DNA of 36,329 nucleotides, taken from IMG/VR virus record IMGVR_UViG_3300028706_000021, positions 1-36,329 of that record; one strand, given 5' to 3'. Positions 14,045 through 26,252 of the stretch are shown one piece after another. The notes under the pieces are model-generated. The model made no database searches and was not told the origin of the DNA. It saw only the letters and a list, made by a program, of their open reading frames with translations. Numbering within the stretch: position 1 is the stretch's first letter; every line of letters begins with the position of its first letter. The DNA is from a virus. A program made the position numbers and the translations under genes.

Positions 14045-14333
14045 TGTCGCACCTAGTAAGGTTGTAAAATCTGTAAACAGATGGACTCCTAACCCAGCCC
14101 CGGTTGGTAATGAGAACCTTTCTGATTACCTCTTCCATGAGTTAAACAGACTATCCGATGTTCTGTTTAACTTGGATGTATTCAGACTGGAGCCTACTTT
14201 TAAAGCCCCTCTAAAAAGCAGGGAAGGAGATATGAGATATGCGGCAGGGTATGGGACAACAGGCGCTTGGGGTAATACGTTGGGCGCTGATGGTATCTAT
14301 TGGTATAACGGCACTGCTTGGACAGCCCTCTAA
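14037..14333 (+). CDS. Small virion-associated protein
   Basis: A 98-residue protein with a helical N-terminal half (LSDYLFHELNRLSDVLFNLD) and a C-terminal part reading REGDMRYAAGYGTTGAWG and ending in GIYWYNGTAWTAL. That C-terminal pattern (reading frame of a small beta hairpin with W and Y) is common in short proteins after the nozzle-type gene in podovirus-like genomes. Function is unknown, perhaps a tail or fibre-linking adaptor. It overlaps the gene before it by 8 bp. Confidence 0.6.
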   Translation: MPSVAPSKVVKSVNRWTPNPAPVGNENLSDYLFHELNRLSDVLFNLDVFRLEPTFKAPLKSREGDMRYAAGYGTTGAWGNTLGADGIYWYNGTAWTAL

Positions 14334-14361
14334 CGCAGACGGGAGTAGGGCCAGTTTCCTA

Positions 14362-15294
14362 ATGGTGGATGATGGGTGGATGACACTTAACTACCTACAT
14401 CCCAACGCAGAAAAACTTAGAATGAGAGCGGCAGCACTAGCAAACGGTGATACTCACATCTATATATACAGTCGTAATGCTGGAGATAATTTCGGTAGTT
14501 CTTTTAAGAACGTAAGCGCCATAAGTCCTAAGCCAGATTGGGAGTCGCAACTGGACGCCTTGAATGACATAGGGTTAAGTCCAATCATGTGGCTTACACC
14601 TGACGATAGCCCAAGCATTACCTCTCAATCACTGGACGCTCAGAAGGCTCACTTCAGCGAGATCGTCCGTAGGTTTGATGACAAGGTTACAGGGTATGTC
14701 GCCTGCTTAGAATGTGATGAGTATTGGAGCGCCGCGAAAACTAATGCTCTGGTCGCTCATTTAAAATCAATCACTGACAAACCAGTTGGGGTTCATCTAA
14801 CCTCTGGTATTGGTGGACACAAGGGGAATAAGGAATACTATGCAAATGCTGATTATGTCTACCTTCAGACTGGTTGGGATAAGACCCCCGCAGAGATTAC
14901 TGCGATGGTTAAGCAAGCGATTGCTGTCACAGGCAAGCCGGTTGTTGCGTCAGAGTATGCGAAGGAGAGCCGATCAGCAGCGGCTAGGGCGTTAGGCGAT
15001 GCCGCTTGTTTAGCGGGAGCCGTAGGCACAGGAAACGGAAGATCAGTAGATTTCTGCGGTCAGAGAGAGCAGAAAGTGGAATGGTACAAGGAGTACGAAA
15101 CGGAGATGATCGTTGCTGGAGTCGTGATGGCAACCCTTTACGCCGTATCTCGATTCGACCTACCCCTCCAGTTGAGAGCAACGGAGGACGGTTATCAGAT
15201 CGGCGCGGTGAAGAAGATCACCCAGAACCAGTCGATAGGTTTGAACTATAGAGATGACGGGGCAGTAATGACCTACTACAGGATTGAATTTTGA
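14362..15294 (+). CDS. TIM-barrel glycosidase-like protein
   Basis: A 310-residue protein with the alternating strand-helix rhythm of a (beta/alpha)8 barrel: THIYIYSRNAG, LSPIMWLTPDD, VTGYVACLECDEYW, KPVGVHLTSG, ADYVYLQTGWD, KPVVASEY, then a helix and MATLYAVSRFDLP. Two acidic residues fall where clan-A glycosidases keep theirs: a Glu in LECDEY at the end of a middle strand and a Glu in VVASEY on a late strand. This suggests hydrolysis of a surface glycan or cell wall, but could also be a degenerate binding barrel. The frame is open upstream to 14239 or beyond; 14362 avoids a long overlap but lacks a strong binding site, so the start is uncertain. Confidence 0.6.
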   Translation: MVDDGWMTLNYLHPNAEKLRMRAAALANGDTHIYIYSRNAGDNFGSSFKNVSAISPKPDWESQLDALNDIGLSPIMWLTPDDSPSITSQSLDAQKAHFSEIVRRFDDKVTGYVACLECDEYWSAAKTNALVAHLKSITDKPVGVHLTSGIGGHKGNKEYYANADYVYLQTGWDKTPAEITAMVKQAIAVTGKPVVASEYAKESRSAAARALGDAACLAGAVGTGNGRSVDFCGQREQKVEWYKEYETEMIVAGVVMATLYAVSRFDLPLQLRATEDGYQIGAVKKITQNQSIGLNYRDDGAVMTYYRIEF

Positions 15295-24200: not shown

Positions 24201-24903
24201 GTTTGAGCATGAGACAGGTGAGTTAGATCACACTGACTACGGTAAGTTCTGGAGCGAGAGGGTTCCTGTGTTCTTAGGTAATGAAACGGATGGAGTCATA
24301 AAGGCTTTTACCCTGCTCAATCTATTACCAATGGCCGACCTTCAGAGGGTGCATACACCACTCAATCTTATTAACGAGATGGTCAGCCCTATCCCGAAAC
24401 AACTGTTCGAACAGATAGCCAACTACGATTCCTTCATGAAGAGGGAGATCAAAGCCTACCCCGGTGAGACTCATGACTTCATGGGTATCAAGATGGCTCC
24501 CCGCATACACCATCTTGTTAAACTTTTAGTACCCCTAACTGAGATCAATAGACTTAATCCCGCAGGTGTATTTGGTGAGCGCATACTCGACCCCAAGACT
24601 GGCGTTCCGACCAAGCAGACTGATGCTTACTTTGGGTTAGGAGCAGAGAGATCAACATATAAAGATACACAAGAGAGCGCGAGATGGTTAAGATTCTTTA
24701 GTGGCGTTGCAACTTATAATGTAAATCTTGATCGTGACAGATACTTTATGAACAAGAATCTTAGAAAAGATTTGGCTGAACTTAAAGGTAAACTGAAGTG
24801 GGCATTAAGGAAAGGACAGAATAGGAAGGCAGAAGAACTAATGGATTTGATTGAGGCAGTTGAGCATCAAGAAACCACTGACCCATTCGAGAGGAGAACA
24901 TGA
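21208..24903 (+). CDS. Large internal virion (ejection) protein
   Basis: This 1231-residue protein is the largest in the window and is expected to be packaged in the head and released into the cell with the DNA. It begins with a small beta domain (VSFSYEGQKFNATVPDD). Motifs I associate with large internal proteins of marine podoviruses are a WTLGVRPAYHSRNAIGNLWN segment near residue 705, and RAMPFYTWTRKNIPVQFEHL near 962. Gly-rich hydrophobic stretches around residues 130-165 could touch membrane. The C-terminal 90 residues are charged and helical. No peptidoglycan hydrolase motif was found by eye. It overlaps genes on both sides (8 bp and ATGA). Confidence 0.7.
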   Translation: MAKVSFSYEGQKFNATVPDDFKQLPYATQQERLLSALEDKHGQVDTPWKQNKNVLDYLSMLERPFQSVKVGVKESWLGSKLHQAMGGVDLTPNEGFWTGAQRGLMGNDEIRTQDYLPEDMNPYLKGVLGFIGDVATDPLTYAGAGTVRAIGGGLSKAGKATGVTPLMKSAADAAMNVKVGSSEVGLADLGRIFNVASGKGKAVKGELGESNRIYREHEEFTRRNLTGLKDFITARAKATGQSEDAIERVFVEAMERKRIEVKDADGNFEYATDREGNFIPLIDRETGDVMAGSEGVMYKKVYGDFVAMDKKTIDILGEEGIEKLTLWSNYMKQLVDESAAAGMPIQALEGRGYFPRVRNQEAVKRMKALELDELGQEDQAKALFGTNYKQGRKLWDMSSEDANIMLTKRLNEVWREKGHSRDNPLTTFFDMSPGLALGTRALVQAKAIQKKHFIDSITDSGYGIGPQISRERLTELKAEFHKLYNRPASKEVTDAEGNKSWVMDEEFAQFSYDKTLHKGENEIGLWLRQGDNGEWLKREINPSWAGRLDNANEQFRWVKASPEDMKGSRAVEGIPEGYVDKAKLDEAWHIAFKAKVGEQSLRTDEFHDDVVEIIGDIEGARTPSSIGEALSEYTIQPTTIDSYKLAATHADAVVEAMKKSSAGVFHAPKQVARQIEDAMEVMSGSAKGNKEVQKFLELYDTTQNSWKAWTLGVRPAYHSRNAIGNLWNAYLVTGMGENIPKASKLLWDAGRLQYYARFNGDPAKRAEVLRNLKGIRLKSEERPSITPGKYQAKDYAGTGYSMERLVNEAIQRGVTAGHYSADNIRDMQRSIAVRDGKGTTFERTLGPENPLVRGGFAFGGSIEGNARYAVFMHTIQQINKDPSKYKWVSPDGLEHSLADAIKSGKVPEGYFKTKSVEYRDRTIKEYHPVTVDDMIFDVAGREVQGSLFDYSDVSAFEKNYLKRAMPFYTWTRKNIPVQFEHLIKNPQRAEKLAIAKQQFEHETGELDHTDYGKFWSERVPVFLGNETDGVIKAFTLLNLLPMADLQRVHTPLNLINEMVSPIPKQLFEQIANYDSFMKREIKAYPGETHDFMGIKMAPRIHHLVKLLVPLTEINRLNPAGVFGERILDPKTGVPTKQTDAYFGLGAERSTYKDTQESARWLRFFSGVATYNVNLDRDRYFMNKNLRKDLAELKGKLKWALRKGQNRKAEELMDLIEAVEHQETTDPFERRT

Positions 24904-25286
24904 AGAACTTACTACTAGCGATAGCCTTATCCTTTATTGGAACACCTCTGTTAGCAGAAACGGACAGACCAAATGACATGACGGACAAGCAAGTCCCCAT
25001 CATGCTCCACTGTTTCCCAAGTTTCGCTAGAGTGGTTGAACTACTAGGTAGGGACTACCAAGAGGCGCCAGTTATGCTAGCCCACATGAGTCCTACCACA
25101 ACTATGGTATGGTTTACCAATAAGGAGATGTCTACTTCCACACTAGTAGTGACCAAATCCTATAAGGATTCTGAGGAATCCTGCATCATGTGGAATGGAT
25201 CGAGTGGGGCGGGTATGTCATTCAGTTTAAATCCTGAGCCAAACTTCCCAGAGAAAGGAGCAGAAACAAGTTGGAATGAATCCTAA
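24900..25286 (+). CDS. Small secreted (periplasmic) protein
   Basis: A 128-residue protein with a clear Sec-type signal peptide: MKNLL, a hydrophobic core to residue 17, and a likely cut after LLA at residue 19. The mature part has two cysteines (HCFPSF and SCIMW) that could form one disulphide bond, a MVWFTNKEMSTSTLVV segment and a C-terminal GMSFSLNPEP. Small secreted proteins of this plan are frequent near the lysis genes of marine phages. Their function is unknown. The ATG overlaps the previous stop (ATGA) and has GAGGAGA upstream. Confidence 0.65.
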   Translation: MKNLLLAIALSFIGTPLLAETDRPNDMTDKQVPIMLHCFPSFARVVELLGRDYQEAPVMLAHMSPTTTMVWFTNKEMSTSTLVVTKSYKDSEESCIMWNGSSGAGMSFSLNPEPNFPEKGAETSWNES

Positions 25287-25522
25287 TGGAACTTACTATC
25301 TTGATTGATGCGTTGCTAGGCATGATGCTTTTAATCACCGGCTTCGTGCTTAAAAGGATATTTTATTTGTTCGACAACTTGATGAAGGAAGATAAAATCC
25401 TGCATGATCGAATTACTAAAGTGGCAACAGATGCGGTTAGCCGTTCAGAATTGAATGGCGCGATAGATAGAGTCCTTAATAGGATAGATAAGATGGAAGA
25501 ACGATTGATGAGCAAACCATAG
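25286..25522 (+). CDS. Membrane-anchored coiled-coil protein (lysis-region)
   Basis: A 78-residue protein with one N-terminal membrane helix (about residues 5-27, LIDALLGMMLLITGFVLKRI) followed by a charged helical stretch with heptad-like spacing and a basic, Glu-containing end (IDKMEERLMSKP). The plan fits small phage proteins found beside holins, and also resembles a short i-spanin. No catalytic motif is present. It overlaps the previous stop (TAATG). Which lysis role it has cannot be settled from sequence alone. Confidence 0.6.
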   Translation: MELTILIDALLGMMLLITGFVLKRIFYLFDNLMKEDKILHDRITKVATDAVSRSELNGAIDRVLNRIDKMEERLMSKP

Positions 25523-25531
25523 GAGATAATT

Positions 25532-25654
25532 ATGTGGACAAAGTTTCAAGCATTAGAACCCGGAGTGAAGTGGGGCATAGTAATAGTAGTGGCAGTGATA
25601 TTCGTACTGGCCGCAGTTTATGGATCACCCTCGCCCTCTGTTGTTTCGCAGTAG
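25532..25654 (+). CDS. 40-residue membrane peptide, candidate holin-like
   Basis: A short frame with a clear AGGAGATAATT binding region just upstream of its ATG. The product is a Trp-containing N-terminus (MWTKFQALEPG), one membrane helix (about residues 14-30, GIVIVVAVIFVLAAVY) and a short Ser/Pro tail. Its last 85 bp are also read in another frame by the lipoprotein gene beginning at 25570. Single-helix peptides of this size occur as phage lysis or pinholin-type proteins. The evidence is the binding site, the helix and the cluster position. Confidence 0.6.
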   Translation: MWTKFQALEPGVKWGIVIVVAVIFVLAAVYGSPSPSVVSQ

Positions 25655-25968
25655 GATGCACGACAGTAAAGAAGGCGACAATAGTAGCAACGGGAGCGGG
25701 TCTGGGTGCGACTGCGGGGGCTGTCTTGTCGGGGGGTGTCCTTGCACCGATAGCGGGAGCCATGACGAGTGCATTTGTGGTCGATGTGGTTACAGAGATA
25801 TCCCACAGGACGGCGGTGAGTGATATGGACTGCGCCCCTGATAATATATGGACAATCATGCAATCATTAGTGGAGATAGGTGGATGGGCATTACTGCTGA
25901 TATTTGTAGCACCGATGGTGATCGGATGGATACTACCCGGCCCACTGGAGAGAAAGAAAAAGAATTAG
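25570..25968 (+). CDS. Lipoprotein with C-terminal membrane helix, u-spanin-like
   Basis: About 132 residues from the GTG at 25570 (another in-frame GTG is at 25534, giving 144). Near residue 18 a hydrophobic stretch (LWITLALCCF) leads to the lipobox A-V-G-C, with the lipid-bearing Cys at about residue 30. Next is a Gly/Ala-rich glycine-zipper segment (GAGLGATAGAVLSGGVLAP), then a C-terminal membrane helix (WALLLIFVAPMVIGWIL) and a basic end (LERKKKN). An outer-membrane lipoprotein with a C-terminal inner-membrane helix and total length near 130 is the layout of T1-type unimolecular spanins, which fuse the two membranes. The glycine zipper is unlike known u-spanin linkers. Confidence 0.5.
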   Translation: MGHSNSSGSDIRTGRSLWITLALCCFAVGCTTVKKATIVATGAGLGATAGAVLSGGVLAPIAGAMTSAFVVDVVTEISHRTAVSDMDCAPDNIWTIMQSLVEIGGWALLLIFVAPMVIGWILPGPLERKKKN

Positions 25969-26252
25969 TCGTAGTCGAATGGCGCGACATCATAGCAACA
26001 GCAGGGTGGGAGAAGTCAGTAGACTGCCCCACCCTTTTCTCTGTTGGATGGTTGCTAAGTGAAGACGAGGATACAATCCTCATCGCTAACACAAAAGACC
26101 CTGAAGATTTTACGGAAGATCAGGATCAGATTGTATATTACGGACTGACACGTTTTCCCGCTGGCGTTGTTGTTCGGCTGCAACATATACCTTTAGCGGA
26201 GTACCCCATTTTCTCTCAAATACTGAATCCCAAGTCAACCCCTTCGGACTAA
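25926..26252 (+). CDS. Small soluble protein closing the rightward block
   Basis: A 108-residue acidic protein, unrecognised. I start it at ATG 25926, within the last codons of the lipoprotein gene; a longer frame from 25848 would overlap that gene much more. It reads KELVVVEWRDIIATAGWEKS, then FSVGWLLSEDEDTILIANTK, then YGLTRFPAGVVVRLQHIP, a small alpha/beta plan. Its last 143 bp lie antisense to the end of the leftward gene at 26110-26430. It is the last gene of the rightward transcription unit. Confidence 0.55.
   Translation: MDTTRPTGEKEKELVVVEWRDIIATAGWEKSVDCPTLFSVGWLLSEDEDTILIANTKDPEDFTEDQDQIVYYGLTRFPAGVVVRLQHIPLAEYPIFSQILNPKSTPSD

Follow-up and report, generated by a model that had tools for sequence, protein, structure and literature searches.

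The closest described systems to the locus reported here are spanins. T1 gp11, the prototype of the unimolecular spanins (u-spanins), is one protein of 133 aa with an N-terminal lipobox, a beta-rich periplasmic domain and a C-terminal membrane helix. Beta-rich periplasmic domains are described for the known u-spanins, and a periplasmic Cys is missing from all 58 of them (PMC6139136); both traits are regularities of u-spanins and not part of their topological definition. Published spanins with this topology also include the cobavirus proteins of Roseobacter phage SIO1 (gp22) and Lentibacter phages ICBM1/2 (PMC6775973). Two-component spanins, such as lambda Rz/Rz1 and P2 LysB/LysC, pair an N-in/C-out protein of the inner membrane with a lipoprotein of the outer membrane; the two are encoded in overlapping frames, periplasmic Cys are present, and the minimum linker for such pairs is 62 aa. 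Pairs of the embedded and of the overlapped Rz/Rz1 type are both common, and an origin of u-spanins from o-spanins that acquired a C-terminal helix has been put forward as a speculation by Kongari et al. (PMC6139136).

Here we describe a pair of overlapping genes from uncultured, mostly marine phages, encoding a lipoprotein with u-spanin-like topology and a minimal membrane peptide nested over its signal sequence. The pair is undescribed in the searchable literature. The original prediction for this DNA had regarded the overlap between the two frames as unusual; overlap of a spanin gene with another lysis gene is not, given the Rz/Rz1 cases above, and the unusual part is the combination of a u-spanin-like protein with a minimal membrane peptide.

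Results

The window, i.e., the whole stretch of DNA analysed, is a 36.3-kb uncultured virus record of a podovirus-like phage. Its plus strand carries a terminase end and portal, capsid, tail and ejection genes, after which replication genes follow on the minus strand. The last large gene (1231 aa) stops at 24903, and directly after it comes a run of small genes encoding, in order, a secreted protein (128 aa), a protein with a membrane helix and a coiled coil (78 aa), the peptide/lipoprotein pair and a 108-aa protein (Table 1). The first family, of secreted proteins of about 110–134 aa, has a conserved place as the opening gene of the cassette and is without a database match. The 108-aa protein matched phrog_25889 (E 5e-4). 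Its ATG sits within the conserved Gly-Trp codons of the lipoprotein, so that the 3' end of the lipoprotein gene (25926–25968) is also overlapped, by 43 nt; in three relatives (L066, L068 and L089), the frame of another family, c5, begins at this point or close to it.

Table 1 Features of the peptide/lipoprotein locus and associated genes in the window.
Feature	Position	Strand	Basis or remark
Exported TIM-barrel glycosidase-like protein, family c5	14239..15294	+	start uncertain
Secreted protein (128 aa, family c1) with a signal peptide, opening the cassette	24900..25286	+	sequence, relatives
78-aa membrane helix and coiled-coil protein, family c11, cassette gene upstream of the pair	25286..25522	+	sequence, relatives
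AGGAG ribosome-binding site	25521..25525	+	6 nt before peptide ATG, 8 nt before GTG 25534
Nested 40-aa single-helix membrane peptide, MWTKFQALEPGVKWGIVIVVAVIFVLAAVYGSPSPSVVSQ	25532..25654	+	conserved in 77/79 loci, omega 0.37
Lipoprotein ORF, u-spanin-like, 144 aa from GTG 25534 or 132 aa from GTG 25570	25534..25968	+	sequence, relatives
Alternative lipoprotein start GTG, within the peptide's Lys-Trp codons AAG TGG	25570..25572	+	sequence, relatives
Lipobox A-V-G-C, acceptor Cys codon 25657–25659, +2 Thr	25648..25659	+	motif, conservation
Glycine-zipper segment, GxxxGxxxG then SGG..AP..GA	25675..25794	+	conservation; AF2 helical at low confidence
Second, periplasmic Cys (DMDCAPDN)	25831..25833	+	one extra Cys in 72/80 distinct members
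C-terminal membrane helix	25876..25932	+	hydrophobicity, conservation
Anchor motif GWILPGP, then basic tail 25948–25965	25924..25944	+	common to cobavirus/CRP-9 u-spanins
108-aa downstream gene, family c16	25926..26252	+	start inferred from homologue lengths

The cassette order in relatives was a secreted protein, membrane/coiled-coil proteins, family c9, a DUF6356-type membrane protein, an IscA-like protein, the peptide/lipoprotein pair and, often, c5. The DUF6356-type small membrane proteins are conserved in the relatives' cassettes (e.g., L081:4971-5159 and L102:1412-1594) and are possible holin candidates. The IscA-like Fe-S carrier lies immediately upstream of the pair in many relatives (L096:4176-4487, L066:9642-9953) and is absent from that place in the window. 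Another family, c8, consists of a membrane helix and a long coiled coil (L114:8725-9165; HTVC106P gp39, HTVC019P gp54), an i-spanin-like topology, and is common to many cultured pelagiphages.

The predicted 40-residue single-helix peptide with a good binding site was recovered, with its ATG at 25532, 6 nt downstream of AGGAG, and its stop codon at 25652–25654. Its membrane helix comprises residues 14–32 (summed biological-scale dG -0.9), and its basic N-terminal part suggests an N-in/C-out orientation. The peptides of relatives are 30–43 aa long and end no more than about ten residues beyond the helix; the most frequent distances from their stop to the following Cys codon of the lipoprotein are 2, 5 and 17 nt.

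The reading frame at +2 relative to the peptide contains all the expected parts of the lipoprotein, namely the AVGC lipobox, glycine zipper, C-terminal helix and basic end. The overlap itself, originally described as one of starts, is confirmed, and its extent is much greater: the whole peptide except its first codons lies inside the signal-sequence coding region. GTG 25534 is served by the same ribosome site as the peptide ATG. Both candidate lipoprotein GTGs are built from letters of peptide Trp codons (A/G + TGG), and at least one lipoprotein-frame NTG start overlaps a peptide Trp codon in 71 of the 77 relatives. This is suggestive only: any Met-Trp or Lys-Trp pair necessarily yields such a codon, so that the pattern is in part forced.

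The lipobox, assessed from motif and conservation, ends in GC in nearly all members, and the +2 residue is T, G, Q, A or S and in no member Asp; lipidation is predicted. Within the zipper, G46, G50, S54, G55, G56, P60 and G63 are invariant in 32 aligned members. An AF2 model of the lipoprotein was all-helical, with a helix-breaker-helix architecture of the zipper, at low confidence (mean pLDDT 54.9, too weak for a fold search). The segment stands where T1 gp11 has its beta linker, in agreement with the prediction that a glycine zipper replaces the usual linker. The C-terminal helix comprises residues 103–121 (dG 0.18), followed by ERKKKN; every member scored has such a helix and a positive tail (+2 to +6), the family median of summed dG being -0.71. 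With a periplasmic part of about 70 residues between lipobox and helix, the u-spanin-type topology originally proposed was also supported.

Successive scans of IMG/VR gave 62 relatives and then at least 136, and six were found in metagenome-assembled genomes. No assignable relative of the lipoprotein was found in Pfam, PHROGs, NCBIfam, a PDB sequence search or, by tblastn, cultured phages. A nested membrane peptide of 30–43 aa with an SD-like site was present in 77 of the 79 distinct loci having the full region, always at the same frame offset, and it was kept even where the lipoproteins were only about 45–50% identical and the peptides scarcely alike; conservation of one frame alone, which would have spoken against the prediction, was not the pattern seen. 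L016-type relatives start the peptide with GTG after AGGAG. One relative (L102) has, in place of a nested version, a 38-aa TTG-started membrane ORF just upstream, and another (L147) is truly without a nested peptide. In the lineage of the latter (L147:2192-2587), the lipoprotein starts from an ordinary ATG, providing a natural control for the lipoprotein alone. Two alignment searches with the peptide only yielded 69 loci; the lipoprotein overlapped the peptide in all 68 that were testable, the remaining one being cut by the contig end. The superficially similar gp56/gp57 overlap of HTVC019P was rejected, as it encodes neither a membrane peptide nor a lipoprotein.

Selection within the overlap was estimated by an OLGenie-like count, separately for the 18 sequences of the window clade and the 15 of a second clade, because mixing overlap geometries had blurred the values. 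The peptide omega was 0.37 in the window clade (95% 0.22–0.59; bootstrap P of omega ≥1 = 0.0005) and 0.45 (0.21–0.92) in the second, where weight is placed on the spread across clades and not on single P values, the related sequences not being independent. For the lipoprotein frame, omega was 0.70 and 1.09 inside the overlap, not different from 1, and 0.33 and 0.32 over the first 45 codons of the mature protein. Purifying selection, whose absence would have spoken against the prediction, was accordingly found on both products, and for the lipoprotein in its mature part. The overlap values of the two frames indicate that the shared DNA is dictated by the peptide and that the long n-region of the lipoprotein tolerates the remainder. 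When the lipoprotein frame was recoded synonymously in 16 divergent members, the nested frame stayed open and hydrophobic in 0–1.3% of trials (0.13% for the window). That the pair exists and is conserved is virtually certain.

A u-spanin-like topology of the lipoprotein is well supported by its predicted features, i.e., a lipobox without Asp at +2, a C-terminal transmembrane domain and a periplasmic part of spanning length. The lipoprotein is close to T1 gp11 in length, and sequence similarity between the two was limited to the lipobox (hhalign Prob 0.5); by contrast with that protein, for which no nested peptide is known and which has no Cys or anchor motif, and with the known u-spanins in general, the present lipoprotein is predicted, with low confidence, to be helical and usually has one periplasmic Cys. 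The cobavirus proteins and Roseobacter phage CRP-9 gp70 resemble it in having an N-terminal lipobox, a short periplasmic part (61 aa in the ICBM1 spanin against about 70 here) and a C-terminal helix with GWxLPxP; an endolysin gene lies near theirs. Their anchors read ILGWVLPSP and ILGWLLPTP, that of the present family VIGWILPGP, and the motif [IVLM][LIVA]GW[ILVF][LI]PxP occurred among 5114 ORFs only in these two groups. An hhalign comparison of the two families gave Prob 56 and E 1.1e-4 over 14 columns. CRP-9 gp70 lies immediately 3' of a putative endolysin, and in one relative (L132) the membrane-helix/coiled-coil gene adjoining the lipoprotein is similar to the neighbour of the ICBM1 spanin gene (E 2e-7). 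The similarity is, however, limited to the anchor motif, which is short and may be convergent; the cobavirus/CRP-9 proteins have no glycine zipper and no periplasmic Cys, and a nested peptide over the signal sequence was absent from the cobavirus-type genes examined (ICBM2 and CRP-9).

The genes flanking the pair in the window include no recognised endolysin or holin. The M15_3 endolysin family was absent from the 17 records searched, and GH24, amidase_2, SLT and M15_4 were absent from the 18 records searched. In pelagiphage HTVC106P, a similar region after the large late protein encodes proteins resembling c8 and c9 together with a holin-like protein and an M15A peptidase. Of 17 records, 13 carry family c5, one of them as a fragment; the c5 gene follows the lipoprotein directly in many relatives, the start adjoining or overlapping the lipoprotein stop, and stands apart at 14239 in the window. 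The c5 model is a TIM-barrel (pLDDT 73.9) whose nearest structures are clan GH-A type glycosidases, with TM-scores of about 0.4–0.5. Known endolysin domains are absent from the protein, which has a signal peptide, and we regard it just as a candidate cell-wall enzyme, because this signal peptide looks cleavable and would bring it into contact with the wall before lysis. The family, also encoded in L066, L080, L096, L109, L110, L114, L116, L138 and L141, is undescribed; it has invariant DTH, LExDE, EY and GTGxGR motifs as well as a C-terminal hydrophobic helix and beta strands that end in Phe. The N-terminal part of its gene in the window overlaps the end of a tail gene.

Discussion

We consider it probable, at roughly 60%, that the lipoprotein is a u-spanin-like lysis protein. 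This reading draws on the lipobox, +2 residues, C-terminal helix and positive tail seen in all members scored, on a linker whose length falls within the known range, and on the HTVC106P region with its holin-like protein and M15A peptidase; the evidence for a spanin role that we rate highest is the anchor motif shared with the cobavirus/CRP-9 proteins, together with the genes found beside these. The reading is weakened by the lack of an adjoining endolysin or holin and of similarity to T1 gp11, by the predicted helix and the Cys, and by the fact that bacterial glycine-zipper lipoproteins also have non-lysis roles.

As a u-spanin-like protein, the lipoprotein would be exported, lipidated at the Cys encoded at 25657 and sorted to the outer membrane, with the C-terminal helix and basic tail anchoring it in the inner membrane, N outside and C cytoplasmic. 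The helical zipper segment and the short Cys-containing linker, together the periplasmic residues, would join both membranes. At lysis, after the wall has been cut, zipper-packed oligomers may pull the membranes together in a fusion step and disrupt the outer membrane. The peptide would be translated from the same ribosome-binding site region in the other frame and insert into the inner membrane N-in/C-out; its strict tie to the lipoprotein (68/68) suggests that it is most likely an inner-membrane partner or timing regulator.

The pair could alternatively be a reduced two-component spanin, with the peptide as a minimal i-spanin and the lipoprotein as an o-spanin that gained an inner-membrane helix, i.e., an intermediate between the two-component and unimolecular types. 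The gene order and overlap are like those of overlapped i-/o-spanin pairs, the helix is probably N-in/C-out, the conserved periplasmic Cys recalls two-component spanins, the two products strictly co-occur, and the idea fits the speculation of Kongari et al. on the passage from o-spanin to u-spanin (PMC6139136). We find it doubtful, however, as the peptide has a membrane helix but no periplasmic coiled coil or interaction domain such as i-spanins carry besides their N-terminal helix, and no sequence similarity to any i-/o-spanin was found; compared with lambda Rz/Rz1 and P2 LysB/LysC, the inner-membrane partner is just a helix of 30–43 aa and the lipoprotein is itself anchored in the inner membrane. 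The +2 frame offset also differs from the lambda Rz/Rz1 arrangement. We likewise propose only tentatively a hybrid spanin, in which the self-anchored glycine-zipper lipoprotein and the signal-sequence-encoded inner-membrane peptide form an obligate pair; if true, it would be a living two-component/unimolecular intermediate in which helix-zipper packing, and not beta collapse, disrupts the outer membrane.

The peptide had originally been called holin-like, and it might be an independent holin or pinholin-like depolarising peptide beside a spanin lipoprotein, the two sharing one locus merely to save space. It has a single helix and a basic N-terminal part; the T1 holin ST13 (71 aa) is annotated with one membrane helix, no other clear holin lies near the pair in the window, and a weak PHROG lysis match was obtained for the peptide (Rz-like spanin, E 0.57). 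Against this, the peptide was never found without the lipoprotein in the 68 testable loci (a tie more in keeping with a partner or regulator), its size is very small and at most about ten of its residues lie outside the membrane, and the DUF6356-type proteins of relatives could be the holin. An independent holin is unlikely, and the label is so far not supported, small size and one membrane helix being all that the peptide shows of a holin.

Less probable still is a role outside lysis, in which an envelope-modifying or superinfection-excluding lipoprotein would work with a membrane cofactor and perhaps with the c5 glycosidase. The lipoprotein looks like a glycine-zipper lipoprotein of the OsmB type, with a lipobox and then a small-residue zipper, and gave an OsmB-like match (E 0.022) that was sub-threshold and far below the cut-off; the secreted and IscA-like proteins of the cassette are not obviously lysis genes, and c5 combines a signal peptide with no known endolysin domain. 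OsmB-type proteins are cellular stress proteins, and to our knowledge none has a C-terminal inner-membrane anchor. This anchor, the basic tail, the cobavirus u-spanin motif and the position after the large late gene all argue against a non-lysis role.

Finally, that the peptide ORF is a translational leader, for which coupling is plausible with its start and ribosome site 2–41 nt before the lipoprotein starts, or a chance frame is highly improbable in view of the purifying selection on its amino acids, the recoding null and a membrane helix kept despite sequence turnover; together with conservation, these results led us to reject a chance overlap, which is largely refuted.

The pair offers a candidate lysis gene for uncultured phages whose records (17–18 searched) gave no match to five common endolysin families. 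In it, a lipoprotein with u-spanin topology, a predicted helical zipper and a periplasmic Cys is joined by an inner-membrane peptide encoded in the same DNA, and this conserved combination makes the idea that o-spanins gave rise to u-spanins testable. That one signal-sequence stretch yields two conserved membrane products also makes the locus an unusually tight example of dual coding, of a kind missed by gene callers.
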